Source: Siphonodentalium dalli | Taxonomy: Eukaryota > Mollusca > Scaphopoda > Gadilida > Siphonodentaliidae | Assembly (NCBI GenBank): GCA_032622095.1 | Contig: CP136064.1 | Span: forward strand, 252,590,484-252,654,483 | Reading direction: 5' to 3' | DNA length: 64,000 bases | Part shown: piece after piece, positions 3,360-39,051 of the stretch | How the letters are laid out: each line of letters starts with the position of its first letter | How positions within the stretch are numbered: position 1 is the stretch's first letter | Made by a program: the position numbers and the translations under genes | The notes under the pieces: generated by a model | Seen by the model: only the letters and a program-made list of their open reading frames with translations | Told to the model about the DNA's origin: nothing | Database searches by the model: none

Positions 3360-3393
3360 AGCAGAGTGGCGCAGTGGTAGCGTGCTGGGCCCA
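3360..3393 (+). pseudogene. 5' half of initiator tRNA-Met, split by insertion
   Basis: The first 34 nt match intact copies exactly and stop after the CA of anticodon CAT. The 3' half lies at 39050-39089, with the CA duplicated at both edges. Confidence 0.97.
3392..3393. other. Left copy of 2-bp target-site duplication (CA)
   Basis: The intact gene reads GGGCCCATAACC. Here CA precedes the left terminal repeat, and CA recurs at 39050-39051 after the right one. Confidence 0.85.
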
Positions 3394-3415
3394 CACTCTT
3401 ATAAGTAATGTGTAG
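3394..3415 (+). repeat. Left terminal inverted repeat
   Basis: 22 bp starting CACTCTTATAAG and ending TGTGTAG; differs from the right copy at two positions. Confidence 0.93.
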
Positions 3416-3546
3416 AAACGATTACACATCAAATGTGTAAACCCGGTTTATACACATAGCAATGTGTAGTTTTACATATGAATGCATGGACCAATAGCCG
3501 TTTACACATTTTGTGTATATTTTGGTACACAAAATTGTGTAAAGAT
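3408..3546. repeat. Left subterminal ACACA/TGTGT motif array
   Basis: At least seven TACACA or TGTGTA motifs in both orientations, several as paired palindromes such as TTACACATCAAATGTGTAA and TACACAAAATTGTGTA. These are likely binding sites for an element-encoded protein, as the TnpA motifs at En/Spm ends are. Confidence 0.85.
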
Positions 3547-3684
3547 GTCGCGTGCATGTCGCGTGCGGCGGCAAAAAGCGCATTGCATTGTGGTTTTATA
3601 GCGTCTGTCCGACAGACGCCATATTAATTTAATATTATAAAAGTTAAAAATGTGTACAATCTATTGGGATCAGAGCCAAGAAAT
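3545..3684 (+). promoter_or_regulatory. Candidate element promoter and non-coding first exon
   Basis: Just inside the left array is a CpG-rich stretch: an 11-bp direct repeat ATGTCGCGTGC (3545-3555, 3556-3566), then GCGG, then a 19-bp palindrome centred at 3610 (GCGTCTGTC-C-GACAGACGC). A TA-rich segment follows, and a consensus donor AAAT|GTAAGT at 3685. The transposase ATG follows an acceptor at 12068-12069, so a leader exon here spliced over 8.4 kb is plausible. No transcript evidence is available. Confidence 0.35.
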
Positions 3685-3685
3685 G

Positions 3686-4859
3686 TAAGTTCAGAATTCC
3701 GACTTGTGGGTATAGTATAAGTAATACACGATGATTCATTTGTTAAACTTCCTTGGCGATTACTGACCTTAAGACTCTTTTTATGGCCGTTATTATAAAA
3801 CTAATATTCAATTATAGTCTATCAGTATCACTCTATGGAACCACGCCGCGTTCCTGATTTATAATTGTTCAGTTTCTAAAAGAATACTCACACAAATAAA
3901 ATACTACATACATAGTCTATATACCGATACATGATACATATAAATTATAATCAAATATATAAATATATGGTACATTATACCGGTTGTTAATGTTATTGTT
4001 AACAATCAAAATTAATTTACCCGGCCTGACTCTGGTAACGACTAAATCAATCTCACAGTCACAGACACAAAAGACAATACTCTTATACTGCGCCTCGTCG
4101 ATGTTGTTATTAACAATTTACAGAGTGGTTCAAACTAGGAAACTATCCCAAATGTTTGCCCAAATTTCGACGAGCAGTCGTTGTATTTTTCATCATATAT
4201 AATATCGATATAAAGTCAAAGTGAAAAACCTTCCCAATCCCATTGATCACGATTGAGTGAATGAGTCTGTTGCAAAGTTGTTTTCGACTAATCGCGCAGA
4301 TAGTTGCCTTCATATCGTTCAGCAAAACAGTAAATGCAGACTGACCCTGTAACGTTAAAAATGCCAACTTGAATGCCATCTGATTCGAAGTAAACGTCAT
4401 CGGTATGGATCACGTGATCAAAGCACGATACTGACGTCACATATAAACATTAAAAATATAAATAAACACAACAGCACGTGGCACGCAATCAATAAAAATA
4501 CTAATACTGTAATACTAATAGGGAATGTCACAGACAAGAGTCCAACCACCCACCTAACACAAATAATACAAACACAATGTAAACATCCGCCAGTACTAGT
4601 AGATCTACTTGATACATTTTATTTTTAGTATTTTTACTACAAATACTATTACGCCAGTCAAAAGTACAGTTGCAAGCAAAACAATGCAAACAATTGCTGA
4701 TATATTACAATACAAACTGTGAATATGTCTTCATTTAGGTCATCTATATAGTCACAGTTGTCAGGGGTTTTGTGTCATATATTACATATGGTGACAACTG
4801 GTTGACTTAGGATCCATACTTGTGACTTAGGCACATATATATATTATTAGAAGGGATTT
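3686..4859. other. AT-rich non-coding stretch inside the element
   Basis: No convincing gene or repeat seen; only short chance open frames such as 4143-4400 on the minus strand. If a leader exon ends at 3684, this is intron. Confidence 0.5.
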
Positions 4860-5945
4860 TGGGCTTAGTGTAGGGAAATATGTTTTTTAAATATAAGAAT
4901 TGGTACATTTAACTTGAATTGGGCACTGTAACCATTATAGTTTTTATTCCCATCCCTGTTGGTGTTTTTAGATAGCGGGTCTGCATCTATATAAGAGATA
5001 TTCTTGGGCTCCCCAGCATTTTTTAAGGGTATGGAGCTTAATTGGCCTACAAAAATGCCCTACTAGTTAGTACATCCACCGTGGCAGCACCCATGATAAA
5101 ACTATACAGCACCGTGCCACGCATCTAAAATATTTTTTTGGAATCATTGTTTTCTCTGACAGAGTGTATAACCATTCTGAAAATTATTCAACATATGACT
5201 TTATAATTTAGGTAGTCAATGAACAAAAATGGTTTGGGCACCTGGAGGCTGGAAGGGTTTAGGGCTCAATGTAGCTAGGGCAATATTTGTGTTTTTAATA
5301 GCCAAATTGATATTTCATTCAACTTGAATGGGCCCTGTATTAAACCACTATAGGTGCTTCATTCCAGCACTTTTAGTGTTGTTTGATATGCCAGCATCTC
5401 TAGAAAAGATTTGCAAAAGGCTCAGTTGGGATTTAATGGTAAGGGGGCGTCCCAATAACCCATACGCTACCACCCGTGATAAAACAGTACAGCAGCCATG
5501 CATGCATACAAACTCATATTTTGAAGTCAGCTTTCTATCAGACTATACTCATTATTAAAATAATTCCACAATTATTTACTTTAGAATATAGGCAGGCAAT
5601 GAACAAAAATACTTGGGCACCTGGATGGGGTTTTGGGATCAAGGGGAGGGGAATATTTGCTTATTAACAGTAAAATTAGTAGTTTTAACTTTCATTGGGC
5701 CCTGTAACACATTATACATGTAGGTGTTTAGCAAGAACTGAAAGCGTTTTTGGATATGTCTGAATCGATACATAAGACTTGTAAAAGTTTGGGCTCCTCG
5801 GTGGGATTTAAGGGCAAAAAGCTGACCTGAAAACCCACACCACCCATGATAAATCATACAGAACCGTACCTTAATATCATATTTAGGAGTCACTGTTCTC
5901 TCAGACTGTACTCATTATGGAAATTATTCCACATTTGACTTTATA
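4860..5945. repeat. Degenerate ~370-400 bp tandem repeats
   Basis: Three diverged copies share the order TTGGGCTCA...GGGCCCTGTAA...CACCCATGATAAA...ACTGTTCTCTCAGACTGTA...TTCCACATTTGACTTTA...AGGCAGGCAAT. Landmarks recur at 4860/5260/5630 and 5139/5522/5885. Further copies at 7141-7265 and 7855-8225 lie beyond inserted elements. Confidence 0.75.
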
Positions 5946-5947
5946 AG

Positions 5948-7690
5948 TACTCTTCGGCTCCAAATAAAAGTGCAGGCCCAAATAATAGTGCAGGGGGGAA
6001 ATTCCATTGAAATTTAATAAACAAGCAGACCCAAATAATAGTGCAGGGTGAACTCTGAACAAAACATCAACATATTAAAGGTGGTTAAACAAAGTATTTT
6101 TATAATGTAGGAATAAGTATTTCAAGTATAGGAATCAACATAGTATGTGTCATGTGGTGTTTTATTCAATATTTAAAGGTACTCAATCCAATAAAACTCC
6201 TCTCAATTACTATTTCAATGGCTTCGGGGGTCAAAAATATTTGATTCGAGTCGAGGAAGTCACCCATCAAAGCTCAGATTTGTTAGATATCAATTTTAGA
6301 AATCTATTATTTTTCATTATCGGGAATACTTTCTGGCCCAGAATTTTAACTCTATCAAAATTGCGTTATTATTACCACTTGATTTTAGAGTTATCAATCC
6401 TTGTCTGTTCAGCCCTTTTAATTCAGATTGTCTGGCTTCGGCAATCTGCTACGGCAACCATTTACCGTGGCCTAGTTTGCTTCAGCAAATGGCTTCGGCA
6501 TTGCCGATTGCCGTAGCCAATTATGAAGGCTGTCTGTTGGAATATTGTTTTGGTGTACACATCTCGCGCAGGTTACAAAACTGACGGCAATTATTAGTAC
6601 TCATCTCGAGAAACTAACAAATTTCAAAAATCAATATCTAATAACTCTGAGCTTTGTTTAATGGGTTCGACTCGACTCGAATCAAATATTTTTTACCCCC
6701 AAAGCCAAAGAAATAGTAATATAGGACCCTCTGATCGGATTGTTGTTGTTGGAATCTGTTGAGATGGCAGCCCTCTTAATTCAGATTGTTTGGCTTCGGC
6801 AATCCGCTATGGCAACAGTATGCCATGGCCCAGTTTGCTTCAGCAAATTGCTTTGGCAATGCTGATTGCCGTAGCTAATTATGAAGGCTGAGATGGGGAC
6901 CCTCTGTTCGGATTGAGTACCTTTAAATGTTCACATGTATGCCATACATATACAAAGGTACATGTATAAAGTTATACCTGTAAGCTCACCATTTTTATAT
7001 CAGAGTCATATACATTTAGAAATCTAGAGTTTGTGCTGATTTCAATTTATATAGCCTCAAATGTGCAGACCCAAATAAGCACTGTGTAAGGAGAAAATTA
7101 TCCAATACAATAATAAAGGTGCATGCATGTTTATTTGGAGCCCAAGAGTATAGGCAGGCAATCAAAAAACATATCTGGTCACCCTGGGATGTATTTTGGG
7201 CTCAGGGTGGGGACTATTTGGGCTTTTTAATAATCAAATTGCTATCTTTAACTGGGCCCTGTAAGACAACAAAAAAGATACTAAGTTTCCGCACATCGAC
7301 CGACCCGAAAACTAACCCGCCGACCCTACTCATGGACTCCAAATAAACATGCATGCACGTTTATTATTTTTTTGGGAAATCCCCCCCCCTGCACAGTACT
7401 TATAATCCTTATTTCCAATTTTGGGTCTGCATGTTTATTGATTTTGAAGCTATGAAAATTGAAATCAGCACAAACTCAAGATTTCTATATGATTCAGATA
7501 CCGAAATGATGAGCTTATAACTTTATGCATGTACATATTCAAGTACATGTATATATGGTGTACATGTGAACATTTAAATATTCATATTGAATAAAACACC
7601 ACTTGACAAATACTATGTTGATTCCTTATACATATACTATAAAAATAATTTGTTTAACCACAGTATCAAGTAATACTTTCCCCAAATCAC
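5948..7690. repeat. Foldback element with long inverted arms
   Basis: The left arm (5948-6176 plus 6923-7135) and right arm (about 7335-7690) are diverged inverted copies; both contain GGAATCAACATAGTAT...GTGGTGTTTTATTCAATA and AGTTTGTGCTGATTTCAAT. Their outer ends carry TTTATTTGGAG/CTCCAAATAAA, also seen near 17300. The left arm is interrupted by a TTAA-flanked MITE; the right arm preserves the empty site. Confidence 0.75.
6177..6922. mobile_element. TTAA-flanked MITE (746 bp)
   Basis: Ends AGGTACTCAATCC...GGATTGAGTACCT flanked by TTAA at 6173-6176 and 6923-6926. The uninterrupted right arm of the host foldback has ATTTAAATG here, which proves the TTAA duplication. TTAA targets are used by piggyBac and Kolobok elements. 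Contains AT-rich inverted internal sequence and no coding capacity. Confidence 0.88.
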
Positions 7691-7854
7691 TAGTTGGCAT
7701 TTTATGTCACTTTGGTCGAGATAATTCAATATTCCTGCAGCTGGATACAAAATATCAAAATAAAATAAAACAAAAAATTTCCTGCCTACCTATACCCTAA
7801 TTTTTTCGCTCCATTAGCGGAAACATACAATCTTTTTTTTTGGCCTAACCCATC

Positions 7855-8225
7855 ATGTGGATACCAGTCCAGATCTTTTAGTGTTTTTGGATAGGTATGC
7901 ATCTATACAAATGGTTTGCACAAAGATTAGGCTCCTCAGTGGGTTGTAACTTGTAAGGGTATGGAGACAGCCCAACACCCACAGGCCACAGCACCTATGA
8001 TATAATCATACAGAACCCTGCCTTAAAATTATATTTTGGAGTCACTGTTCTCTCAGGCTGTACTCATTCTGGATTATTCCACATTTGACTTTTAGGAATA
8101 TAGGCAGGCAATCAACAAAACATATCTGGTCACCTGGGATGGATTTTGGGCTCATGGTGGGGACTATTTGGGTTTGTTAAAAGTCAAATTGCTATTTTTA
8201 ACTTCAATTGGGACCTGCAATAGTA
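7855..8225. repeat. Further copy of the ~370-bp degenerate repeat
   Basis: Shares GGAGTCACTGTTCTCTCAG, TTCCACATTTGACTTTTAG and AGGCAGGCAATCAACAAAA with the copies at 4860-5945. Confidence 0.7.
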
Positions 8226-8573
8226 TCACCTTCTGTTTTAGTTGGAGCGACTCGTGATAGCATTATATTATCTTCGGTATATATTAGTTGGGGCTACTTT
8301 CTGTATTAGTTGGGGCGACATTGATTTTCTTCAATTTTCGAGTATACAGGCACACCATATGAGGGAAGCAAGCCCTCGGTGACACCACATTCACACTATA
8401 TGATCATGGAAATACTATAGATTTGTGCAAGAGATGCTGATTTAATAAGAAAAACTAGAGCTCCAGGACTGAGACACCAAAGCTCCAGTAATTACACACC
8501 ATTTTTTGGACAGGGATGCTGATAATATGAAAATAGGGTTTTTTCCCCCTGATTTAAGTCAATAAGTAAACCA

Positions 8574-8787
8574 TACAGTAATGCTCTAATTAATCGACTC
8601 CTTAACCACAGCAGAATTATGGATAACTTTTCAGGATTTAGTAGGAAATATGGCTTGTTGCCATCCATCGGAAAGCTCTCTAGAGCTTTTCGATGAATGG
8701 CAACAAGCCATATTTCCGACTAAATCCTGAAAAGTTACCCATAATTCTGCTGTGGTTAAGAAGTCGATTAATTAGAGCATTACTGTA
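8574..8787. mobile_element. Palindromic mariner-like MITE (TA duplication)
   Basis: An almost perfect ~214-bp hairpin, TA|CAGTAATGCTC...GAGCATTACTG|TA, with a short loop around GAAAGCTCTCTAGAGCTTTTC. A second copy is at 28073-28289 and a damaged one near 35476. The TA-CAGT ends fit Tc1/mariner non-autonomous elements. Confidence 0.85.
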
Positions 8788-9102
8788 TGAGGTAAGAAAG
8801 CCCTCATGCAATGACACAGCATGCATGTATAGGATATTACCATAGTAAAGGCTAAAATCTGTGCAAAAATACATTAAAAACATCATACAAAAAATTACTA
8901 GAGTTCCGGGAAGGCGACATCAATTCTTTGGATAGAGGGATGCTGATAATATGTAATTAGGGATTCTCCTTGTTGAACACATACTCACAGTTGACTGTTG
9001 AGTACAGGTCAAAATTAGCCCAATGCTCATCTTGTGTTGCTAGGAGATACACCAGGTCATGCTAATAGTTTATGGGTAGGTTAGATAGTAGTCACAATTA
9101 CG

Positions 9103-9258
9103 CTTAAGCGCAATTGATTGCGCTTAAGCACAATTGATTGCGCTTAAGCGCAATTAATTGCGCTTAAGCGTAATTAATTACACTTAAGGGTAAATGCCCT
9201 ATTTGCGCTTAAGCACAATATGTGGTATTTGCGCTTAAGCGCAATTAATTGCGCAATT
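9103..9258. repeat. Palindromic minisatellite GCGCTTAAGCGCAATT
   Basis: About seven units of a ~20-bp self-complementary motif (GCGCTTAAGCGCAATTGATT and variants), the last ones spaced further apart. Can form cruciforms. Confidence 0.85.
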
Positions 9259-9276
9259 CATTATTTGGGAACATGT

Positions 9277-10655
9277 CTCTATTCCGAAGGTTCACTACTC
9301 CGAAGGTTCTCTATTCCGAAGGTTCTCTTTTCCGAAGGTTCGTTATTCCGAAGATTTTTTTTTTTTAAAGGTTAATTCTATATTCAAGTATTGAGAAGGT
9401 TCTTTATCACGAAGACTCTTTTTTTTATGAAGGAAATAACTTAAACATTGAAACAATAAATGTTATTTTTTATATTTTCGCGGGTTTCCTTGAGATTTAA
9501 TGTCATTACGTATGACGTTATTTTCCAATACATATTCACACAATTGCTCTTTCCATGCGATTTAATGTCATCGCGCATGGCGTTATATCTCAATAATCTT
9601 ACAAGCAACAATACGCCAGCTAAAGGCGGGATTAAAACAGCGGGACTATAACTCTTAAGGAATACTGCGAAGCAGAATGTCGTTGAATAGACGGGTATGA
9701 GTTGAACCTAACTGCAATTGTGAATTTGTATTGAATTGTAAGGCCCACTTAATTTTCGAGTCATCGGCTATTTTTTATAGTGCCTTGATATCAGGTTTTA
9801 AACACAATCTGTGCCATAAAATATGATTAAAACACTATATATAGTTCATCACCATTCCAAACGTCTGTATCAGAATATGCCCCTAGAGAAATAGAAAACA
9901 TCTTAAATCATAAAAAGATTCCCCCGTTACATGTTGCTCTCAAAATGCAACAGAATTAAACCTAATGTATTTTCAATTGAAGGGGAATAAAATTTTCTTT
10001 AAAATATAGAGTTACCCCCCCTCCATTGAAAATAATACACTTTACTTTGCGCAACAAAACCAGATGAACCTTAAGCACAAAAACAAGTCGTTAACCCTGC
10101 GTTAACTCAACAAAAACAACATGTTCACCGATTATTACACTGGATAAGCTGATAATACAGTGTTAGATAGCTTCATATTTCAAATGGTATATATTGTGGC
10201 ATATATTTTATATATGTGATCTGGGGGTTCGAAAATTAAGTGGGCCTTGAATGTTGATGTTTTTTTTTAAATACAGATTGACAGTTCGGAAAAACTATAT
10301 CTCTTACATGTGGTTTATTTCAGTCATCGTGTTTTTAACTTTCCATAATGAACGATAAACTGATACTCTTTTCTTGCTATTATTAACCGATATTTAGGAC
10401 AATTTGGGAATTAGCAGTGGATATATAAATGTACTATATATGAGTACTAGCGTAATCGTATTTTTCATTCCTCGTGTAGTTTTTTGTGGTGGGGTGGAAA
10501 TTTTGATTCATTTCTGGTTAAATACGCCCAGAATAGAAAACCTTCGGAATAGCGAACCTTCGGAATAATGAACCTTCGGAATAGGGAACCTTCGGAATAA
10601 TGAACCTTCGGAATAGCAAACCTTCGGAATAATGAACCTTCGGAATAGAGAACCC
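9277..10655. mobile_element. Foldback element with CCGAAGGTT minisatellite arms
   Basis: The left arm (9277-9350) is five copies of ATTCCGAAGGTTC; the right arm (about 10545-10655) is the same motif inverted, nine or so copies of GAACCTTCGGAAT. A separate MITE (9740-10248) sits inside. An open frame across the right arm (10465-10701, minus) is only the translated minisatellite. Confidence 0.75.
9740..10248. mobile_element. Nested MITE with 20-bp inverted repeats
   Basis: AAGGCCCACTTAATTTTCGA at the left is exactly inverted at 10229-10248. The interior shares ATCTGTGCCATAAAATATGATTAAAA with a second copy at 32958-33383. No clear target duplication at this copy. Confidence 0.8.
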
Positions 10656-12069
10656 TACCCTCATTATTTAATGTGAATTTGGCCTCCCATAAAATACACA
10701 ATCTTTTTGTTTGACCTTGTCAGGCCTTGTCGCAATTTAAAAAAAAAATTTAACCAGTCAGTGAAAAATCTAGGATTTTTGGGGACACCTGTTTTTGGGC
10801 AATGATATTCCGAAGGCATATCCTGAAGGCCTGAGCTGAGGAAGGTTTGGGAGGGGTTGACCCAAGCTGATGGTGGGGGTACGTTCTCCCCCTGGTAGTT
10901 TTTGAAAATCCATTGCATTGAGAGCTAATCTAGGGCTCTTTGAGTCAGTATTTTGAATTTTACTGAGAGGTCAATTTGATCAAGTTTCTTAAGCATAACT
11001 TTGGAATTTTTTTTATATATGTATGGATTGGAAATGCTTATAAGTTATTGTAAGATATCTTTTGGTTCAATGGATTATGCTTATCCTGCTTGAAATGAGA
11101 CTTACCATTATCACTCTAATTTATATAATACCGGCAGGCTATTTTCTAAAATGCACTTATGCAAGTGAGACTGTGAGAGACACATACATAATAAATTGGT
11201 ACAGAAAAAATGTCTATTAAGTTAGTAATTACTATTTAGTACTAATCTATTTGGTGTTATGAGATCCCACTTGATAAATAGGTTGATTTGATCAAATTGT
11301 CACTGTTCATGTACTGTATTTGATTGAAATACTGAAGTCTGAAGGCTGAATGATAACAAACCTCTGAACCCAAACTATTTGAAGCTAGATAAAGCCAAAC
11401 ATACTTTAAATTACAGTATGATTCCAACTATTAAACTTAAATCTTTTTGTAAACTTAAATGTGTTATGTCAATATATATATATAAATTTATAAATTTTTT
11501 GCATCTTGTTATGATATGAATTGGGACCTATTAAAATTGAAAAAAAGTATAAAAAAAACAAAATAATGTTTGGTCCAATTTTTTTTGAGGCGCCTGAAGT
11601 TTGGGCACCCAAACCGGTAAACAGTATGAAAAACGGCCTGGATATGTCCCTGCGGCAGTCTATACTTACCGGCCTAGCGAAAACCCTGCATGACCAAAAT
11701 CTTTAAATTATCTCAATAAAAGTTAAATACTAGTAAGGCGACATGTACTGACAAAGTACTTCAAGTAACATACAAGTTCCAAGTTTACCTCATTACAATC
11801 AACTATATTAATTAAACTACATGACCCCATTTGAAAGAGTTTATATGTAATGCACAACAATCTTTAACTTCTCATACGACGTTTGTATAATATTAGACGT
11901 AAACTTAAAAATAAAAAAGTTTTCCAAATATACAATAAAATGTGTAGGGTCGTGGTTCAGAATAGGGTCGGTCGGTTTAATGAAACCAAAGCTATTATTT
12001 TTATTAGGACTCTAAATGAATAAATACACATAAATGAGAGCAAACTAATTATTTTATTGTAATTTTCAG
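10656..12069. other. Non-coding stretch upstream of the transposase
   Basis: 10730-10920 resembles part of the repeat inside the 18.8-19.9 kb foldback (GGTTTGGGAGGGGTTGACCC, GGGGGTACGTTCTCCCCCTGG). The rest is AT-rich with no recognisable gene. It ends in a good splice acceptor, TAATTTTCAG, at 12060-12069, 42 bp before the transposase ATG. Confidence 0.55.
12060..12069 (+). other. Splice acceptor of the transposase 5' leader
   Basis: TAATTTTCAG followed by a 42-nt untranslated segment and the ATG at 12112. Confidence 0.6.
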
Positions 12070-12111
12070 GTTATTTCAAAGAATTAACTGGATAAATCGA
12101 GTATAGCAAAA

Positions 12112-14529: not shown

Positions 14530-15400
14530 ATTAAGGGGGCGCATATTTTGCATAAATCCGGCCAAAAATTACAAGAGATTTTCAACAAAGAATATCTCTG
14601 GATCTTTCTGGCGAAAATTCTAGAATTTCACATATGTGACCCGTCATATTAAAACCAGTCGTAAGTCGAAAAATATTTTATTTGAGTTATGTATTGCATG
14701 CTATAGAGTATGATAAGAGCTTTACATAGGTCACACACTTTAATAAGGGGATACCTTGTTGTGGTCCAAAGCAATATGATTTTGAATGTCAGTGTCATCA
14801 TGAACCGATTTCAGAGATAATATCGTTTAAAGACAATCAAATTAGTTAAATTCTGAATAAATATACACCAATATATGTCCAAATTTCAGAACTGCAAAAA
14901 TGGACACAAACTTCACTTTATGCTGCTCTATGTGACTTTGTCTAAAACTAAAATCATAATCTTTCGCATTTCTAATTTTCTATCATAATTTAGGTATTTA
15001 CTCAGTGTTAGCAAACCCATCTTACGACTGGTTTTGATATTGTGGGTCACATATCATCTTTGTTGTATATAGAAACTGAGACATTATTAAGAGACAACAA
15101 CAACAATGGATTGTAACTCATTTGAGAGGTTGAAAATATTATTTTATTTTCTGTCCATTTTCGGTACCAAGAACTGCTAGAATAATTAATAAATTTTACA
15201 CGTCTCTCCAATCACAAAATAGCTCTTTGTCTTGGTTCTATGAGAGGAGGCTTCATTTGTACCATAATGTTGAGTAATTTTTTTAATTGCATAAAATAGC
15301 ATCATACCCCCCCAGCTATTATATATTTTGGAACTTCTGTCTGCCTGTGCATGTATGTATGAGTGTTATAGACTGGAAAACTGCTCGACCAATCAGTTTT
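14530..15400. other. Non-coding DNA after the transposase
   Basis: AT-rich, with no gene or clear repeat. AATAAA at 14525-14530 overlaps the stop codon and may serve polyadenylation. Confidence 0.5.
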
Positions 15401-15416
15401 CTAATTGGTATGTAGG

Positions 15417-15660
15417 CCTACTTTGATCCGGGAAACAATATGGGCAGGTCCAATTTCACATGCAACTGTGTCCTTGACCTCACTCATATACGCTCATATA
15501 TAGGCATGTTTCTGGACCTCGACCGATCCGACTCAAATTTAGTATTAAGCCTACTTTGATCCCGGGATCAATATAGGTTCTGCAATATCACGTGTGACCG
15601 TGTCCTTGACCTCGCTCATATATGCTCATATAGGCATGCTTCTGGACCTCGACCGATCCG
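15417..15660. repeat. Two-copy ~128-bp tandem repeat
   Basis: Copies at 15417-15533 and 15546-15660 share CCTACTTTGATCC, TGTCCTTGACCTC, CTCATATA and TCTGGACCTCGACCGATCCG. Confidence 0.8.
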
Positions 15661-16833: not shown

Positions 16834-17056
16834 AACCCTTTGATGACTAAAGCTTCCTGAATTTTTGCGAAAACCCTATGCCAATACATTCTCTTATACC
16901 ATAGGGCACTCGCATAAGAGAATGCATTGGTCTAAAAATACCTTGGAACTTGTAAAGCCAGTGCATTTTCATAAATAAAAAAAATTGTCAGACTCACTAT
17001 TGGAGACTCGCATATAAGAGAGTGCAATGGGCAATGGCACATACACCAGCGCAGCT
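16834..17056. repeat. Foldback repeat with TGCATTCTCTTATA arms, copy 1
   Basis: Starts AACCCTTTGATG and contains inverted CATTCTCTTATA/TAAGAGAATGCA pairs; related to the copy at 21247-21505. Confidence 0.6.
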
Positions 17057-27700: not shown

Positions 27701-30700
27701 TTTGATTCGGTAGGTAAATTGGTTTTATGCTGATACCGATACCGCCCGGTAAATACCCAGTACCGCCCATCTCTAACGTACTGTCCTCTATCGAATGATA
27801 ACATGAAAAAGGGACATGCACAAAGTAATCCAGCAAGATCTTAAACATCTAGAACAATTGGTAGATGACTGGGGTATGCGCTTTAATGCCAAAAAATTAT
27901 TTGTGATATGTCAATAGAATCACCACCCATTCGTAAACCCAAATGTTTAAAATAATCGAAAAGAGTAAAGTCCCAACAAAAAATTATGAGTGCCACTCTA
28001 TAATTTAGGCAGGGATGAGTGGATATGTGTTTGTGAGTTAAACCCTACTATATTTTACACCACCACAGAATATACAGTAATGTTTTAAGTAATCGACTTC
28101 TTAGCCACAGCATAATTATGGGTAACTTTTCAGGATTTAGTCGGAAATACGGTTTGTTGCCATCCATAGGAAAGCTCTCGCGGAGAGCTTTCCGATGTAT
28201 GGCAACAGACCATATTTCTGAATAAATCCTGAAAAGTTACCCATAATTCTGCTGTGGTTAAGAAGTCGATTATTTAGAGCATTACTGTAGATTTAAAATG
28301 AGTTACTTGTCAATCATATAAAACACAGCCTCTAGTTGTCTGGATACCTTTTTAGCCCAAAGGTATCACTGAAGATTCAGAAGATGAGAGCTTCTGAATA
28401 TTAAACTATTTCTGAATATTTACGTATTATCTCCCCATCAAACAGGCACATTTCTATGATGAAAAGGCTCATACAGGGTTCTTGGAGTTCTACATCCGAA
28501 ATAGGAAGACTAACAGCACAGAGATCGATACACGAGAATGGAAACGAGCAAAGAGAAGCTTGTCGCCAGAATATATGCAACTCGATCCAGAGTCAGCGGA
28601 TGAAATCTTCATGAGAACATCGGTTCCAAATGCGGCTAACCATCAACGTATTTTGGAGCTGATGGAGAAGACTAGAGAAAAGAGGCAAAGATGGATAAAA
28701 AGCCATTCTCCATCACCAGGGGAGATTTTAGCTCGGTGGCCTCGACTGATAGATACAACTGGAGCAGTAAGTGACCTGTATATACCGTATACACATCTTC
28801 TAAGTACTGTGGGCTAAGTTTAGCCTAAGATTTAGAGACATCATCATGTTAAGGGAAGCAATTCATTGCATCTAAATGTATATTCAGTAACTGAAAGATG
28901 CTTCACAAAAAGTGAAAGAGGTTCACCTAATTGAATTTGGAAATGAATTTATATATGTCGCCAAGATAACATCTGTCATACTCCTATGTTGTTAAATTTC
29001 TCACAGAGTATCATTGATGAGAATCTCGGAGGAAAGCAGTTTATACACGGATTGCCTATTATAGTCACTCGTCAATCTATATCATACACAAGTTACTGCA
29101 CCTAATCTTTCGGTATAGCAATTTAATATATACCTTTCTATAAAAAAGCAGAAATTTACCAAATTATATTGTCGTATCTATCCCTTCGGAGCTACATGTA
29201 CAGTGCATTTACGCTGTCCACTAGCCAATCAAATGCAAATAATGTATGACACCACCATTGCTGAAACAGTTGACCTATTTTTGTAGCCGGTTAACCATGA
29301 GGGGTAACCGGTTGACAACCAGATATCTGCTATTATCAACCATGGCCTTTACACTCATTGTCTACAATATAAAATGAGCAACAACCTCGCCATAATCTGG
29401 TCAAATAACTGTTTGGCGAACTCACTTAATGTTTATACATACAAAGCTTGTATTAAACAAATGTGAATCAGAAAACGCGAATGATAATAAGCTAATAGGC
29501 CAGTAAAGCCATGTGTTGAGCTGCATGAAACAGTTAACTAAAACTTGCAGTGTTTAATAAATATAGACATGTCATATGTGACCAGTTTGTATATTGTAGT
29601 CACAACTATCTAATCCTGACTTGTCATCATTCGTGTTTGGTGATAAATAAACTGCATCACCCAATTTCATGTTCTAAGTGTATGTATTTTATGTATACGC
29701 TTAGAACAATATGGAACTCAGGTCCTGAGGGTATTATTTGGCCTAGGACGATTGATGACAGTTAGACACAATTGTGAAGTTTCAACTTTCATGAATTTTA
29801 TGTATAATGAAAATAAAAATCAGCCAAGACAGTGTTTATGTTCGAAAAATTGAACAATCAAATGAGCCCTTGGTCATAAACATTAAACAAAACTCGATGC
29901 GAGTTCAACCAGTTCATTGGAACATAACTTTATCCACTGAGATTAATTATTACTCAAAGTTTAAAGGTACTCAATCCGATAAAACTCCTCTCAATTACTA
30001 TTTCAATGGCTTCAGGGGTCAAAAATATTTGATTTGAGTCGAGGAAGTCACCCATCAAAGCTCAGATTTGTTAGATATCGATTTTAGAAATCTATTATTT
30101 TTCATTATCGGGAATACTTTCTGGCCCAGATCTCAGTCAAAATTGCGTTATTATTACCACTTGATTTTAGAGTTATCCATCCTTGTCTGTTTGAATAGAG
30201 TTTTGGTGTACAAATCTCGAACAGGAAACGAAATTGATGGCAATTATTAGTACTCATGTCCAGAACATAACAAATTTCCAAAAATCAATATCTAATAACT
30301 CTGAGCTTTGTTTGATGGGTTCCTCGACTCGAATCAAATATATTTACCCCAAAGTCAAAGAAATAGTAATATAGGACCCTCTGATCGGATTGTTGTTGTT
30401 GGAATCTGTTGAGATGGGGACCCTCTGTTCGGATTGAGTACCTTTAAACTCGGGAAGGGTCGGTCGCTAGTACTGGCAATAGCAGAGCTGGTCTGTTGGT
30501 TATGGATTTTTGGTTTATACATCTAGCGACCGACCCTTCCCGAGTTTAAACTTTGAGTAATAATTAATATCAGAGCTGGTCTGTTAGTTATGGATTTTTG
30601 GTTTATACATCTCTATGTATTAAAACCCAATTGTCGTCTTTTATGTTTTGATGCCAATTAAAATATTTTTTTTTAAAGTTAAGTTCAATGTACGATTAAA

Positions 30701-33700
30701 CAAATGAATGATACACTGTTGTAAATCAATTAATAAATACTTCTTTATTGTGGGATGATCAATCACGATAAACATTTATGATATTGACGTTTTGTGATGC
30801 CATTTGGATATACAATTTATGAGAATAGGTGTAACACTTTGAGCAAGAATATCCTCCATTCACATAAAATGCCCACTTCAGAGGGTCTCACATCTCTTTA
30901 ACCTGGGCAACGCCGGGTAACCCTGCTTGATTATATATTTTCAATGTTGCTATAAAAACATTAGTGTTAACTCCACTCCAATTCAAACGATCTGATTGGG
31001 CAAAAGAAACATTATTACATATGTTAGTTTTGATTTGAAGACTTCTATCTAGTGAAATCAAACTGAATCTTAGGTTTCATCAGACCCACTGAGGGGGTCG
31101 GTAACATATGCCAGTTTTAGGAGTGTACGATCTATTACAATAGAAATCCCTTGTAAAAATTAATATAGAAAATATAATTTGCTATTGTTCTTAAACTGAT
31201 ACAGTCTCTATAAATAATTGTCTTTTATTAATCATCAGATGGAAGATGAATACAATTCAATAATGGTGACGGAAGCATCTCTGGCACAGAAACTAAAAGA
31301 TATTCAGGAGGGAATCATTTTCCGAGCAAGGAAGAATTACTGGGGTATCAGTGACATAAGGGAAATGCTTGACAGAGACGATGACAATGGAGGTGAGACA
31401 GTTCATATGAGTGATCACAGTTCAAGTAAACAAATTCTTGGAACTGAGCAGTACTATTGCCCACTTTTTCCCTTGCTGGGTGTACATGTATATATCTATT
31501 TATAATAAATATGTATCAAGACACCAACACAATTCTGTTTGGCGTTTTACACACTTATTGGTCTGTGATGTCAACAGTAAATGGTGTCTTTTACCTGTTT
31601 CAAAAAAGGCTTTCTTTCAATACTGTTCTTTTATGAATCATTTATTACCAAAATAAAACCTGATATGTAGATTTGAAATAAAATTTGTGCAACAATATCA
31701 TAATTAGCACCTGTGCATTCTTTACTTCCGGAATGACATAACATATTTGCGGAAGGATATCCAAACAAAGAAACAAATCTGGACAGACTGAAAACATTAA
31801 TTGCGTCCAACATAGAGTGGTGTATGTTATAACAAGTTTGAAGTCAATTGAAGGGTCAGTGATATGTGTAGGATACTAGTTACCGTCTGAATCTGACATT
31901 TTCTGGAAATATTGTTTCATTTATTAATCGCAAAATTAACTATAGGTTTCTTTGTTGACATGCTGTGGATCATTTGAAAAAAAGTCTATTATATATTGTT
32001 TCAAGCTCAAATGTAATGATATATCTAAATATTAAAATTTCAATACTTTCATTAACAGGGCTCAAAGACAAGAATACTTTAATGCTGTTGCCATATTTCT
32101 TGCCGGCATCCAAAAAATCAGTGAAAGAAGGGCCAAAATATAGAGGGTCTCTACTGATGATGGAATTTTGGGTAAGTATACAGCTGGTAACATTATTTAA
32201 ATTTTCATTTGTAAGCTTAGGTTAAAACCTACTTTTCAGGTACTACTGGTATTTAAGACTGGCAAAAATATTTTATTAAGATGACACATAGTCGTAGCAG
32301 CAATAGCTGTTTGTCAGATTACTATTATGTCCAAGTAACCTGTCCATTCCCAGATAATATTGGAGACAAGTCCCGACATTGCAATTGAAATGTTAATGAC
32401 TGATTCAAGATCACATTATCATTTCTATATTAGCAACGGATTGGTCAGGCGCATGGGAACACTTTATTGAACTAAAACTGTATTTCGTACCCCCACCCTA
32501 CCCCATGTATATGCATGCAAATTTGGAAGGCAACAAAATCAACTGTTACTTTATTACTCTGTTTAGTAACTGAAACAGACTCCATTTGGTTGGGGGCATT
32601 TATTCAGCAGCAGAGGAGCCTGTAGGCCCTTTGTGCCCTATGCACCTATGGCTCGGGAGCACTTTATTTCACTGAAAAACTTTATTTTCTACCACCACCC
32701 ACATATATGCATAAACATACGGAATGCAACAACATCAACTTATATAACTTATATTAACCGAAACAGACCTTTATTCGATGATGGAGTGGCCGACAGCCCC
32801 TCGGTGTGCGAAGCGCACACGCATTATAATCTTCAACAGGCTCTCTTCGGGAGCTTTTGTTCAGCAGCGTATATAGGGCCACAGGCACTTGCACTGTGGC
32901 CTATATAATAGGAGACTATTTCAAATAAATATGGATCACCATGACTGACATACCATTTAAATGCACACTTATTTTCCCGAGTCTCTGATTATTTTTTTTA
33001 TAGTGACTTGATATACAGTTTTAATAACAATCTATGCCATAAAATATGATTAAAATACTATAATTCATCACTTTTTGAAACATCTGTGTCTCAGAAGATG
33101 AACACAGAAAAAATTGAAAACTGCTGAAACCCCCCCCCCCCATCTCTTCAATATATAGAGTATTCCCCCCTGCATTAAAAGTAATACTGATTTTTACTTC
33201 AATGTTGAAAAACGCATTGGCAACTCAACAAAAACAACATGTTCACATTTGATTACACCGGATAAATTAATAATACAATGTTTTGGAGCTTCCTCTTTCA
33301 AATTGTATATAACTAGCAGGTTAGCCCGCCATATATTTTATAAAAAGAAATCTGGGGGTTCGAAAATTAAGTGGGCCTTTAAATATTGTAAGCAGGGAGG
33401 GAATGTTTCTTTGCACCTGTCAATAAGAAGTTATTTCAATATTTTCAGAATGAATCACCTGAAGAATGCATCCGCTTAGCAGAAAAAGGAGGCATGAAGC
33501 AGCCAGGAATAATTCACATCAATGATCTCTACTTCTGTTCTGTGGATAGAAACATTATTCCCATCCACAGTGAGGACCTTTTCAAGGCTGTGGAATTTGT
33601 TCTTGGAACATACTTTGTTTTCAATTTATCGTATCCGCAGGAACTCACCACAATATATAACTTTTTTGAGCAACTTGTAGGTCTTAAAGGCAGTAAGGGA

Positions 33701-33742
33701 AGACCATGTGTGACTGAACTTATAAACTTGATGCAAAACTGA
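21745..33742 (+). CDS. SAMD3-like SAM-domain protein, eight exons (503 aa)
   Basis: Exons: 21745-21919, 23426-23616, 25151-25293, 26189-26309, 28446-28766, 31239-31392, 32059-32171, 33449-33742. All junctions fit consensus sites (the second intron has a GC donor, AAG|GCAAGT) and keep one frame, giving 503 residues. Residues ~35-90 look like the second half of a SAM domain (LTEEDLIELGFKMGPRRML). Then come RDLYHLFS...ENRRSMVRILGKHL (exon 3), DEKNAMGYAIVSAFPKLK (exon 4), AHFYDEKAHTGFLEFYIRN (exon 5), and a C-terminal HSEDLFKAVEFVLGTYFVFN block. This order matches animal SAMD3-like proteins, a family often multi-copy in fish and marine invertebrates. The ATG at 21745 follows an acceptor at 21739, so a short untranslated exon upstream is likely, but further 5' coding exons cannot be excluded. 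It lies wholly inside the transposon on the transposase strand. Molecular role unknown; SAM domains usually mediate oligomerisation. Confidence 0.8.
22260..23238. mobile_element. MITE with GGACCGG-rich ends, in intron 1
   Basis: Ends GTGATGC.../...GCATCAC, each followed inward by clustered GGACCGGTCC/GGTCCGGTCC motifs. The GC-rich ends contrast with an AT-rich middle. 979 bp, no coding capacity. Confidence 0.7.
23617..25150. other. Intron 2 of the SAM-domain gene
   Basis: GC-AG intron (donor GCAAGT, acceptor TCAATTTCAG). No nested element recognised; AT-rich. Confidence 0.6.
25690..25790. repeat. CGAATC-type short repeat in intron 3
   Basis: GAATC/CGAATCGAATCTC motifs recur about eight times within 100 bp. 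Confidence 0.6.
26479..27035. repeat. Interspersed repeat with GTGGGGGTATA end
   Basis: Begins near GTGTGCACTCGAGTGC and CATACCCCCACCGTGG, ends AAAGTGGGGGTATAAT. Contains three ~100-bp direct repeats (TTGAAATCGGTTCATATTTGTTAAAGTTATTAAGTCGGACAG type, near 26620, 26790 and 26900) and a GGACGGACAGACGGAC tract. Lies in intron 4. Confidence 0.7.
27147..27775. mobile_element. hAT-type MITE (629 bp) with 8-bp target duplication
   Basis: Ends TAGAGATGGCGGTA.../...TACCGCCCATCTCTA, flanked by ACGTACTG at 27139-27146 and 27776-27783. The 8-bp duplication and TAGAGATG-like ends are typical of hAT elements. Inside intron 4; no transposase. Confidence 0.9.
28073..28289. mobile_element. Palindromic mariner-like MITE, second copy
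   Basis: TA|CAGTAATG...CATTACTG|TA hairpin closely related to 8574-8787, ending about 150 bp before exon 5. Confidence 0.85.
28767..29942. other. Intron 5, first part
   Basis: No gene; AT-rich. Contains GCCGGTTAACCATGAGGGGTAACCGG, an imperfect inverted repeat near 29286. Confidence 0.5.
29943..30568. repeat. Foldback element interrupted by a TTAA MITE
   Basis: Left arm TTAATTATTACTCAAAGTTTAA (29943-29964) continues at 30444 as ACTCGGGAAGGGTCGGTCGCTAG; the right arm 30523-30568 is its inverse without interruption. The ~55-bp loop is TACTGGCAATAGCAG...TTTATACAT, partly repeated just downstream at 30570-30612. Confidence 0.8.
29965..30443. mobile_element. TTAA-flanked MITE (479 bp)
   Basis: AGGTACTCAATCC...GGATTGAGTACCT with TTAA at 29961-29964 and 30444-30447. 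Same family as 6177-6922 but ~270 bp shorter inside. Confidence 0.88.
32444..32890. repeat. Two-copy ~200-bp tandem repeat in intron 7
   Basis: ACTTTATT...TATATGCAT...AACATCAACT...ACTGAAACAGAC recurs at a 200-bp offset (32461 and 32661), with diverged flanks. Confidence 0.7.
32958..33383. mobile_element. Second copy of the AAGGCCCACTTAATTTTCGA MITE
   Basis: Shares CTATGCCATAAAATATGATTAAAA and TCGAAAATTAAGTGGGCCTT with 9740-10248; the left end is eroded. TTTAAAT on both sides may be its target duplication. Ends ~65 bp before the last SAM-gene exon. Confidence 0.75.
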
Positions 33743-34333: not shown

Positions 34334-35280
34334 AAGCCAAACAACGCCAAAACGACAACTTTAGGAAAAATAATGGTACTTTTTTTTGTAACAGCATCAG
34401 TTTGCCCTACCAGCACCATACCAATTCATCAGGATCACCAACATCATAGCAGACTAGCAGGACCACTTGACCAGGGGTGATATATCTATTTGTAAATACT
34501 TTACTGATATTTGGGGGGGGGGGGGCTACATAATACATAATATTATTGGATTAAAATTAAAGGGAGACTATCTAAATTCAGCCATTTATTGAGCCATTTC
34601 CTACTACACACAGAGAAACACGTATAACGACCTGAAAATTGTAATGAAAATGAGTGAAAGGCTTAAAGGTACTCAATACAATTAAACATCCCAAAAGTAC
34701 TATTTCTTTGGCTATGGTGGTAAAAAATATTGTATCCGAGTCGAGGAACCCACCCTTCAAAGCTCAGAGTGTTCAGATATAAATTTGTTATATTTTTTAG
34801 ATGTGGTACACTTTCACGTGCTCAAATGGACAAATTGCGGGTGTAAGATGGATAACTCGAAAATCAAGTGGTTACTATTAACAATAATAAACATTTGATT
34901 TTTGACACCCACAATTTGTCCTTTTCAGCACGTGGAAGTGGACCACATCTGAACAAAAATAAAAAATTTATATCTGAACACTCTGAGCTTTGAAGGGTGG
35001 GTTCCTCGACTAAAATCAAATATTTTTTACCCCCCGAAGCCAAAGAAATAGTAATTTAAGGGTGCGTAATCGTATTGAGTACCTTTAAGCCTTTTGCTCA
35101 TTTTCATTATAATTACCATGTTGTTTTACATCCTTCATGTTACATTTAGTGTTTTGTGCACTCATCCCATACTCAAATTTGTTTATTTGTTGCATATTTT
35201 CCATTGAATAGAGTGTGAGATGGCTTATATAATGGCTGGATGTAGACAGTCAGCTTTCAATATGTTGATGCTTTTTGACA
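34334..35280. repeat. Duplicated segment, copy 1
   Basis: Its first part (AAGCCAAACAACGCCAAAACGACAACTTTA to the TTAA MITE) recurs at 35938-36290, and its last part (GCCTTTTGCTCATTTTC to TGTAGACAGTCAGC) recurs at 38212-38395. The second copy has been split by later insertions. Confidence 0.8.
34667..35084. mobile_element. TTAA-flanked MITE (418 bp)
   Basis: AGGTACTCAATACAATTAAAC...ATCGTATTGAGTACCT with TTAA at 34663-34666 and 35085-35088. It sits at the centre of a palindrome (GAAAATGAGTGAAAGGC / GCCTTTTGCTCATTTTC). Confidence 0.88.
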
Positions 35281-35475
35281 TAATTGTTCTCTATTGTCAG
35301 CTGTATGGAAAGTCATAATTGAACATCTTGAAATATCCTTTATTTTGGTGTATAACACACAAATAAAGGCCTAAATGTGTAATTAATATTATTCTCTGAA
35401 CTTGTTATGAATTATTTTGGTAATTTGATGTGTATATTATATATCTACCCTACTCAAGTAGTCCTGCTAATGTGC

Positions 35476-35618
35476 TACAGTAATGCCCTAAATAACCACT
35501 GAGAGCTTTCCGGTGAATGGCAGCAAGCCATATTTGGCAACAAGCCATATTTCTGACTAAATCCCGAAAAAAAAACCATCATTCTGCTGTGGTTAAGGAG
35601 TCGATTACTTAGGGAAAT
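35476..35618. mobile_element. Rearranged third copy of the mariner-like palindrome
   Basis: Starts TA|CAGTAATGCCCTAA and ends ATTCTGCTGTGGTTAAGGAGTCGATTACTTAGGG; most of the left arm is deleted and GGCAACAAGCCATATTT is duplicated. Confidence 0.75.
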
Positions 35619-35937
35619 ACCATATGATGCTAGTGACTGCTGAATTGCTGTGCTGCTGTTTGGTCAAACTGATGCCTTTAAGAAAAAGTACCTTTATTTT
35701 TTTCTAAACTTTATGTTCGAGGTGTTCCAATAATCTGAACATAATTGTATCAAACATTCAAAATCATATATTTTACAAAATATTTCAATACTGGCTGTAT
35801 TAGTTGTGATTTGACTATTATAAGATGGCTATTCATGTTGTTTTGCAATCAATAGCACAACCCTTGTTGAGGTTTTTTTTTTTAAATTGTTCTTGAATTT
35901 TTCATAGACACTGGCATTTTTCTCAAATCGTTCTGTT

Positions 35938-36300
35938 TAGCCAAACCACGCCAAAACGACAACTTTAGCATCGGTTTGCCCTACCAGCACCATACCAATT
36001 CATCAGAATCACCAACATCATAGCAGACTAGCAGGACCACTTGACCAGGGGTGATATATCTATTTGTAAATACTTTACTGATATTTGGGGGGGCTACATA
36101 TAAATACATAATATTATTGGATTAAAATTAAAGGGAGACTATTTAAATTCAGCCACTTATTGAGCCATCTCCTAATACACACAGAGAAACACGTATAACG
36201 ACCTGAAAATTGTAATGAAAATGAGTGAAAGGCTTAAAGGTACTCAATACGATTAAACACCCCAAAAGTACTATTTCTTTGGCTTCGGGTGGGGGGGGGG
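35938..36300. repeat. Duplicated segment, copy 2 (5' part)
   Basis: Over 90% similar by eye to 34334-34720, including the G-run and the start of the TTAA MITE; breaks off in a poly-G tract near 36290. Confidence 0.8.
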
Positions 36301-36627
36301 GGGGTTGCACAAAAGTTTTATCATACAGGGCTGGGGTGGGTAGGTCCGAAGAGGCCCGAAAAAATGAATTTGTGCAAAAAAATTTCTATTCACATTTTTG
36401 CCCTTGTTTTAAGTTGTTTTCAAATATATTCATTAATAATTGTGTTCTAAGGCAGGTTGTGGCCTTTACAGACACTTAGGAACAGGGTAGATATAAGTTA
36501 TAACTTATAGGTAATACAGGGGAGATCTTCCAAAAACATACCTATACCGGGCGGGGTGCATCTCAGAGGCCTGAAAAAAACTGTTTGTGCAAATTTTTTT
36601 CAACCCACATTATGGACATTGTTTTAA

Positions 36628-37076
36628 AGGTACTCAATCCGATCAGAGGGTCCTATATTACTATTTCTTTGGCTTTGGGGGTAAAAAATAATTGATACGA
36701 GTCGAGGAACCTACCATTCAATGCTCAGGGTGATCAGATATCGATATATGAAGTTTCGTTATTTCTATTCTTTCTGTCCCAGATCACAGTCAAAATTGTG
36801 TTAATATTATTACCACTTGATTTTAGAGTTATCCATCCTTGTCTGTTTGATTAGTGTTTTGGTGTACACATCTCGAGCAGATTATGAAATTAAAGGCAAT
36901 TATTAGTACTCATCTTGAGAAAATAACAAATTTCAAAAATCAATATCTAATAACTCTTGAGCTTTGTTTGATGGGTTCCTCGACTCGAATCAAATATTTT
37001 TTACCCCCAAAGCCAAAGATATAGTAATATAGGACCCTCTGATCGGATTGTTGTTGTTGGAATCTGTTGAGATGGG
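36628..37076. mobile_element. TTAA-type MITE, right end truncated
   Basis: Starts after TTAA with AGGTACTCAATCCGATCAGAGGG; the right part stops at GAGATGGG against the next element, whose insertion or an associated deletion removed the end. Confidence 0.75.
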
Positions 37077-37682
37077 GCACAGTTACTGGACATAAAGTCC
37101 CAAAAATAAGGTTTTAATCGAGTTTAGAAATCGGTATCCTTATATAACGAAGTCAAGTAATCACTGGTAATGCATGAATTAATTTTTGAAAATTCACCCC
37201 CGAGAAACATGTCTCAAATAAAAGCACTAAACGCAAAATACCGGCCATAAAGTCGCTTGTTTCCTATAAATAACATACTCACCTACAACTATGCAGCGAT
37301 AAAATCATTCCGGACGCCAAATTAACGGAGTTTTAAACATTTTTCGCCGTGATCGTCCAGTGGCTCGACACCATCATTGAATTCAAAACCGAAACCAATC
37401 GAATGCAGAAATAAACTGGCGAATAAAAAATGCCAACCCACTAAAACGGAACAATTGAGAGATCGCAATTTTTCGTTTTGGACGTCGGAAGGAAAAGTTA
37501 ATCTGCCTATATCTTTATCGGAGGCCGGTCAGTTTGTGAATTATTACAACGAATTATTCAAAAGTTGTAGTTAATTGGTTTTAATAGGTGTTGGCTATAG
37601 AATTAGATGAGATTATGCATGGTCATCGTCAAATAACTCGATTAAAACCTTATTTTTGGGACTTTATGTCCAGTAACTGTGC
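37077..37682. mobile_element. 606-bp element with ~47-bp inverted repeats
   Basis: GCACAGTTACTGGACATAAA (37077 on) is inverted at the right end, and pairing runs to TTTTAATCGAGTT. The interior has a 65-codon open frame (37377-37574) without recognised motifs. Superfamily not identified; no target duplication found. Confidence 0.8.
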
Positions 37683-37714
37683 ACAATGTAACGTTTCACG
37701 ACCCCCCCCCCCCT

Positions 37715-38117
37715 CGCTTCGGGGGTGAAAATATTGGATTTGGGTCGAGGAACCCACCCTTCAAAGCTCGGAGTGATCAGTTATTGATTTTTGAAGTTTG
37801 TTATTTTTTTTAGATGTGGCCCACTTCCACGGGCTCAAATGGACAAATTGCGGGTGTAAGATGGATAACTCGAAAATCAAGTGGTTACTATTAACAATAA
37901 TAACCATTATTTTTTAGTTATCCACCTTACACCCGCAATTTGTTCATTTGAGCACGTGGAAGTGGACCACATCTAAAAAATATAACAAACATCAAAAATC
38001 AATAACTGATCACTCTGAGCTTTGAATGGTGGGTTCCTCGACTCGAATACAATATTTTTGACCCCCGAAGCCAAAGAAATAGTAATTTAGGGGTGTTTAA
38101 TCGTATTGAGTACCTTT
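37715..38117. mobile_element. TTAA-type MITE, left end truncated
   Basis: Interior and right end of the AGGTACTCAATCC family (GGTCGAGGAACCCACC...CGTATTGAGTACCTTTA), next to a second right-end fragment at 38135-38212. A poly-C tract at 37689 replaces the left end. Confidence 0.75.
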
Positions 38118-38211
38118 ATGGCTTTCAGTTCCTCGACTCGAATCAAATATTGTTTACCCCCGAAGCCAAAGAATAGTAATTTAAGGGTGCGTAATCGGAT
38201 TAAGTTCCTTT

Positions 38212-38395
38212 AAGCCTTTTACTCATTTTCATTATAATTACCATGTTGTTTTACATCCTTCATGTTACATTTAGTGTTTTGTGCAATCATCCCAGACTCA
38301 AATTTGTTTATTTGTTGCATATTTTCCGTTGAATAGAGTGCGAAATGGCCTATATAATGGCTGGATGTAGACAGTCACCTTTCATTATGTTGATA
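38212..38395. repeat. Duplicated segment, copy 2 (3' part)
   Basis: Matches 35086-35275 closely, including ATTACCATGTTGTTTTACAT and GGCTGGATGTAGACAGTCA. Confidence 0.8.
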
Positions 38396-38702
38396 TGAAA
38401 TGAAATCTAACAATAAATTATGAAATATGTATGTAGTCGTGTTTTCAATGGTTGACCCATGTTTTATTTTGCCCTCATGCAACACTATATTAGTATATAC
38501 TTGCTATTTTTATGTAAATAGCCCACATGAACAGTCATGTTTCTGACGGCGACCCATCAGGACTGGAAGGATTGGGGTATATACAAAATATTGGCACAGA
38601 ATAGTGTACATTTCATGAGTTCCAGATACTGCAGCTATCCGAATGTCTGAAGTGAAGGTGTAGAGAGTACGTTAGTCATATTGATTCATGGTCCTGATTT
38701 TT

Positions 38703-39048
38703 ATACACCATTATGTGTATAATTTAACACAATAATGTGTATAATTTAACACAAAAATGTGTGAAATTGTGCACATTTTTGTGTAAATAGTATGTGTAAA
38801 AACATACACTGTAATGTGTAAGAAAGTACACAAAATGTGTAAGGGGTATGTGTATATTTTATACACATCATTGTGTATAAATGTGTAGAAATTTACCCAT
38901 TTATTGTGTAAAAATTCTTACACAATTTGTGTACTTCGATGAAACTACACATTTACTACACAAATATGTTTAAGATCAAAAATGAATAATGATTGTGTAG
39001 CAGGGCTACACATTTTGTGTAGAAAAACTACACATTAGTAATAAGAGT
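38703..39048. repeat. Right subterminal ACACA/TGTGT motif array
   Basis: More than twenty TGTGTA/TACACA motifs in both orientations over ~345 bp, e.g. TGCACATTTTTGTGTAAA, TACACAAAATGTGTAAG, CTACACATTTTGTGTAG. Twice as long as, and denser than, the left array. Confidence 0.88.
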
Positions 39049-39049
39049 G
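39028..39049 (-). repeat. Right terminal inverted repeat
   Basis: Reverse complement starts CACTCTTATTACTAATGTGT; 20 of 22 positions match the left end. Confidence 0.93.
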
Positions 39050-39051
39050 CA
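39050..39051. other. Right copy of 2-bp target-site duplication (CA)
   Basis: Followed by TAACCCAGAGG, the continuation of the split tRNA. Confidence 0.85.

Follow-up and report, generated by a model that had tools for sequence, protein, structure and literature searches.

Is a tRNA gene of the mollusk Siphonodentalium dalli split by a single 35.7-kb DNA transposon that arrived as one piece, or by a short element that grew in place? This is the question raised by the 64-kb stretch of DNA analyzed here (the window; G000:C4:252590484-252654483, where C2, C3, C4, C6, C7 and C8 designate contigs of the assembly searched, 2.23 Gb in 9 contigs). Cut-and-paste DNA transposons are usually several times smaller than 35.7 kb. 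We conclude that the element is very probably a giant, non-viral, RAG1/Transib-like transposon of the CMC group (EnSpm-like), with two genes, that moved as a unit together with miniature inverted-repeat transposable elements (MITEs) nested inside it.

Ends and insertion site of the element

The window lies in a tandem array of tRNA genes, of which 101 were found. ARAGORN identified 22 uninterrupted tRNA-Met genes, and one further tRNA-Met gene is interrupted by the element directly after GGGCCCA. The following features delimit the insertion.

3392..3393, unstranded: target-site duplication CA, left copy; uninterrupted array units hold one CA
3394..3415, + strand: left terminal inverted repeat (TIR), 22 bp, CACTCTTATAAGTAATGTGTAG; same end in the copies on C6 and C2 described below
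3394..3600, + strand: subterminal region at the left end, dense in TGTGTA/TACACA repeats; its first ~150 bp are the part that the ~0.8-kb derivatives share best
38700..39049, + strand: right subterminal repeats; last ~236 bp common to the ~0.8-kb derivatives
39028..39049, - strand: right TIR, 22 bp, reverse complement of CACTCTTATTACTAATGTGTAG; pairs with the left end
39050..39051, unstranded: target-site duplication CA, right copy, from comparison with uninterrupted units

The original prediction had defined the insertion by its 22-bp inverted ends, a CA duplication and a rejoined tRNA gene, and all three were confirmed. The TIRs CACTCTTATAAGTAATGTGTAG and CACTCTTATTACTAATGTGTAG are identical at 20 of 22 positions, an identity reached by only 5 of 2.25 million random 22-mer pairs drawn inside the element, and no further site of the whole window matches either TIR at ≤5 mismatches. 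The motif TGTGTA/TACACA occurs 9 times in the left 207 bp, 20 times in the right 350 bp, 29 times in the 35,099-bp interior and never outside the element in the window. The site predicted at 3392-39051 was right, but as the span of an element this interval is too wide since it includes both CA copies; the element proper occupies 3394-39049 (35,656 bp). Rfam gave no match at gathering scores in 3300-39150.

We compared the rejoined site with 21 array units chosen by their uninterrupted tRNA core. Results showed that the 400-bp site is identical (400/400) to 5 of the 21 units and that the rejoined 72-nt tRNA has no difference from 20 of them and one difference from the remaining unit, in agreement with the earlier claim of substitution-free tRNA halves. 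The 22nd uninterrupted tRNA-Met gene (42971-43042) has substitutions beside the insertion site, yet a single CA. A single CA at this site in each of the window's 22 uninterrupted tRNA-Met genes shows that the second CA arose by true duplication. In an array so highly repetitive, and with conversion able to remove substitutions, the junctions could be ascribed to assembly error or to gene conversion among tRNA genes; this is scarcely credible, considering the precise CA duplication at the TIR ends and the recurrence of these ends at two other sites, flanked there by TA.

The transposase and its relatives

An intact transposase had been claimed for the element, and its gene is indeed open throughout.

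12112..14529, + strand: transposase gene, 805 amino acids, single open frame from the ATG at 12112, with zinc fingers, a DDE core and a C-terminal BAH-like domain

Among 44 aligned sequences, D276, D366 and E458 are invariant and were assigned as the DDE triad by position and motif, and the invariant C386 and C389 form a C(2)C motif between the second D and the E. We also looked for an H(3-4)H motif in these sequences: H443 and H454 are nearly invariant but 11 residues apart, and N447 is invariant. The predicted structure matches RAG1/Transib, with an additional C-terminal BAH domain. The best homologues, 32-39% identical over 96-100% of the transposase, are uncharacterized proteins of Hydra, sea urchin, sea cucumber and cichlids, the likeness being compared at the level of the transposase protein only. 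Pfam Transposase_21 was not found at E≤1 in the window protein and appeared below cut-off (E 0.0032-0.026) in 3 of the 9 relatives scanned. In the sequence search against solved structures (E≤1), the transposase matched zinc fingers and one chance-level row, and nothing else.

Excerpts of PMC12730594 characterize the CMCT clade (EnSpm-CACTA, Mirage, Chapaev, Transib, Plavaka, ESTA) by CA..TG ends, 2-5-bp target duplications, a C(2)C motif before the last E and likeness to RAG1, and give 3 bp as the EnSpm duplication. The element shares these clade features: its three long copies end in CACTC..GAGTG, their duplications are 2 bp (TA or CA), and the modeled fold is RAG1/Transib-like. It differs from the clade as described there in its 35.7 kb, BAH-like C-terminus and second gene, and from EnSpm in duplicating 2 bp, not 3. 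These clade features fit a probable place near the CMC/EnSpm (CMCT) transposons. Canonical EnSpm/CACTA elements start with CACTA, and their TIRs may also begin with CACTG. We do not claim a canonical EnSpm, considering the CACTC end and the 2-bp duplication.

In a genome search with the transposase, in which the best 56 of 1088 candidates were scored so that counts are lower bounds, the window copy was the only intact transposase of this kind. Two fossils match 11656-15752 at 93-94% in one block, as would be expected if the transposase came from a small element lying within an unrelated larger one. The gene also lies between the members of some inverted pairs (among the 25 listed of 44), which are arms of dispersed MITE copies and would suit this reading too. 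This arrangement is nonetheless improbable, as one fossil's match continues at 91% through 15749-17639, on to 21.9 kb and to the exons of a second gene (gene 2), and no further outer-TIR match lies inside the element at the mismatch limit given above.

Copies on other chromosomes

We asked whether the element had moved as one piece, MITEs included, as originally proposed. The assembly was searched with both element ends, the best 40 of 1121 (left) and 40 of 1420 (right) candidates being scored, so that these counts are also lower bounds. In both searches only the window copy and copies on C6 and C2 extend past the part shared with short derivatives; judged by their ends, the other 37 of 40 matches per search hold only the end parts common to derivatives. 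The features compared between the long copies are these.

6178..6921, unstranded: nested MITE composite, duplication TTTAAA; whole in C6, first part in C2, absent from the fossil described below
8572..8789, unstranded: nested MITE, a palindrome whose arms are 95% complementary; also in C6
18798..19938, unstranded: nested foldback whose arms are 16-bp minisatellites; duplication GTAAAATT; not present in the fossil
34335..34339, unstranded: site of 2,378 bp present in C6 and partly in C2, missing from the window copy, by copy alignment
34393..38394, unstranded: nested MITE/palindrome cluster; shared with the C6 and C2 copies

The C6 copy (C6:115978264-115992917, 14,654 bp) has the same ends with a TA duplication and consists of 3394-9904, 33303-34339, the 2,378 bp absent from the window, and 34335-39049. 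The C2 copy (C2:220859122-220887837, 28,716 bp), also with the same ends and a TA duplication, retains 3394-6328 and 24941-39049, the latter interrupted by a small gap at 34234-34334, and has extra stretches of 871, 1,702, 4,257, 4,467 and 449 bp, that of 1,702 bp being partly common to C6. The 2,378 bp are best explained, from the alignment, as lost from the window copy. Wherever they retain the parts, both copies carry the same nested MITEs as the window copy: the composite and the 34.4-38.4-kb cluster are common to C6 and C2, and the palindrome at 8.6 kb is in C6 only. The foldback stretch is missing from both. Thus, none of the long copies is a small core with MITEs private to one locus, and movement as one piece is supported by the shared MITEs and by the copies' own 2-bp duplications, which had been expected of further copies. 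Full-length copies of 30-40 kb had been expected as well and were not found, the others being internally deleted at 28.7 and 14.7 kb.

The Kimura two-parameter distance from the window copy is 0.00147 for C6 (12,247 sites) and 0.01134 for C2 (16,797 sites). The claim that the insertion is recent is supported by the C6 value, while the argument from identity within the array is weakened by concerted evolution. As for the nested elements themselves, their palindrome arms are 80-95% alike, as divergent as had been noticed.

The C6 copy lacks 9905-33302 and the C2 copy lacks 6329-24940, gaps that overlap but differ in their breakpoints, with little or no homology there. Among copies with ends, 9905-24940, including the transposase, is in the window copy only, and many copies of ~0.8 kb have these ends; both would be expected if a short element had been enlarged locally by later insertions, the transposase included, and the 35.7 kb had never moved as a unit. 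This alternative is unlikely, given that C6 and C2 share 12-17 kb with the window copy, MITEs included, at other chromosomes and with their own TA duplications, that their overlapping gaps do not share breakpoints, and that a fossil shows both genes arranged as in the window, over ~27 kb. Loss of the transposase stretch from C6 and C2 appears the better account than a late gain in the window lineage, because a late insertion needs both deletions to end exactly at the borders of the insert by coincidence.

Around these copies, some further observations were made. The extras of the C2 copy at 36.4 and 37.5 kb each have a short duplication of their own and seem to have inserted later; the private 4,257-bp insertion of this copy, between window positions 36412 and 36408, has inverted ends from CACGCCCGATAACCC and a TTTAA-type duplication. 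Near the C6 breakpoints 9904 and 33303 lie two nested stretches related to each other, 9740-10251 and 32960-33382, which are 75-77% similar; they are not aligned with each other at the C6 breakpoint. The foldbacks 9247-10680 and 18798-19938 are both inverted 16-bp minisatellites with a common CCTTCGG motif.

A decayed relative and the order of events

The fossil used to order the events is a decayed relative at C2:100964437-100991879, read in part (100966501-100969218 and 100983901-100991999 unread).

5472..33739, + strand: backbone aligned in pieces with C2:100964437-100991879, same order and strand

The relative aligns with 5472-6180, 6922-7294, 7708-8220, 11656-15752, 15749-17639, 17717-18797, 19939-20254, 20253-21184 and 21192-21886 (86-97% over these pieces) and has, in places, additional sequence that the element lacks. 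Its matches to gene-2 exons reach 33.7 kb. It holds the transposase and gene 2 in window order over ~27 kb between the outermost matches. The composite 6178-6921 is absent from it, leaving the clean empty site CAATATTTAAATG, with TTTAAA doubled in the window; the foldback 18798-19938 is absent as well, with GTAAAATT single at the clean empty site and doubled in the window. Barring exact excision from the relative, the backbone was large before the composite and the foldback arrived, since the relative lacks both and still spans ~27 kb with the two genes. For the same reason, the alignment indicates that the large size of the element is not mainly due to MITEs. The comparison of copies likewise places the arrival of the composite before the C6, C2 and window copies separated.

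A second gene downstream of the transposase

The second multi-exon gene that had been described stood up to analysis: six exons with GT/AG borders lie at 25151-33742, and the same exon order recurs elsewhere.

23426..23617, + strand: gene 2, probable exon, position of its 3' border uncertain; includes one half of a SAM-like motif, which scores below cut-off (Pfam SAM_1 E 0.075)
25151..25293, + strand: gene 2 exon; recurs at other loci
26189..26309, + strand: gene 2 exon; recurs at other loci
28446..28766, + strand: gene 2 exon; recurs at other loci
31239..31392, + strand: gene 2 exon; recurs at other loci
32059..32171, + strand: gene 2 exon; recurs at other loci
33449..33742, + strand: final exon of gene 2, including the stop; 5' border set by splice signal and by the start of many paralogue matches

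The exons of the C2 copy have no indels relative to the window. Over 380 codons, these two copies differ by 13 synonymous changes and 11 nonsynonymous ones (14 and 12 in 398 codons with slightly different borders), that is a nonsynonymous to synonymous rate ratio of ~0.22 (P 0.00035 against no constraint), a pattern of codon changes that shows gene 2 to be under constraint. Gene 2 may resemble a fish SAM-domain protein family.

The genome search with gene 2, in which all 92 of 92 candidates were scored, found 7 loci with matches lying downstream of a transposase, in the same orientation: the window, C2:100.97M, C2:112.0M, C4:207.35M (one exon), C3:299.58M, C3:299.69M and C4:17.05M. For most scored transposase matches, a gene-2 match is not nearby. 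The loci C3:26233327-26236525 and C3:26504150-26507061 consist of tandem-like repeated fragments of the last exon.

Several results weigh against a two-gene CMC-group unit that moved whole. On the side of the transposase, Pfam matched no transposase family in the window protein at E≤1 except a weak DUF4218 (E 0.11). As for movement, besides the restriction of 9905-24940 to the window copy and the lack of a second full-length copy among the scored end matches, the ends of the decayed relative were not found in the flanks read (L049, L050), and joint movement of 9905-24940 with the unit is a matter of parsimony, not observation. On the side of gene 2, only about 5 of the 7 loci are independent, as the two C2 loci and perhaps two C3 loci look like mutual duplicates; matches lie without a nearby scored transposase match, for example at C3:51.77M, C3:26.2M, C3:26.5M, C6:191.03M, C4:93.65M and C7:181.88M; the 5' exons are uncertain; a 538-amino-acid exon concatenation found no homologue by sequence at E≤0.001, and a 465-amino-acid version no Pfam match at E≤1.

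Short derivatives and a model of movement

Four short copies (L005-L008) of 797-810 bp have the same kind of ends, with a TA duplication in three and CA in one. The one derivative compared, L008, consists of the left ~415 bp (77%) and right ~240 bp (90%) of the giant element. Of the 7 copies for which both ends were read (three long ones and four short ones), all have a 2-bp duplication; this count leaves out L004 (G000:C8:158514063), which has a left end of the same type and no right end within 1.5 kb, and is either a longer or a broken element.

Taken together with the long copies, a course of events can be proposed, its biochemistry being inferred. The transposase would bind the ends and the TGTGTA repeats, excise the unit and insert it with a 2-bp TA or CA duplication. 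A backbone that was already large would have received the MITE composite and the foldback, and the loaded unit would then have moved to at least three chromosomes. The sister copies may have lost overlapping internal stretches as in aborted gap repair, leaving the window copy as the sole complete source of transposase found, beside a pool of ~0.8-kb derivatives sharing its ends. More speculatively, the element might represent a lineage of non-viral giant two-gene transposons, in which a RAG1-like transposase has its own BAH histone-reading module, a co-conserved partner protein aids the pairing of ends separated by tens of kilobases or chromatin targeting, and a single intact copy is master of the large derivative pool; we hold this tentatively, as a possibility less likely than its opposite.

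No viral genome was seen in this 35.7-kb unit, which very probably moved together with its passengers. Such a system is suited to asking what lets long elements move and whether the second protein is needed, and also whether the BAH-like domain guides a RAG1-like transposase. In addition, the presence or absence of nested elements yields an order of events.

Comparison with known systems

As portrayed in the portions of PMC1636069 consulted, SmTRC1 of Schistosoma is also an animal, CACTA-related element, in which 7 of 14 copies have direct repeats of 2 bp; it differs in its 54-bp TIR beginning CCC and in being smaller than the 8.3-kb Spm/En. The En/Spm families of the red alga Chondrus, in the extracts of PMC6431247, are likewise enlarged with extra genes, but are algal and reach 16-20 kb with 4-5 open reading frames, so that the element here is larger. 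Teratorn, according to extracts of PMC10175614, resembles the element here in being giant and in relying on a transposase and TIRs to move as a DNA transposon; it differs in being a piggyBac element fused with a herpesvirus genome, of ~180 kb. Our limited literature survey turned up no comparable giant animal EnSpm, and we do not claim its absence from print.

A Polinton/Maverick or a virus fusion was also considered. Polintons have a 6-bp duplication and a protein-primed PolB. This candidate was rejected by the 2-bp duplication and by the 8 frames scanned (a subset of all frames), none of which matched a viral or polymerase family, PolB included, above cut-off.

Finally, the tRNA array itself varies between units: one unit has a tRNA-Gly with anticodon TCC (44667-44737) where other units have GCC, and several units have a tRNA-Arg(TCT) in place of the tRNA-Leu(TAG) of other units.

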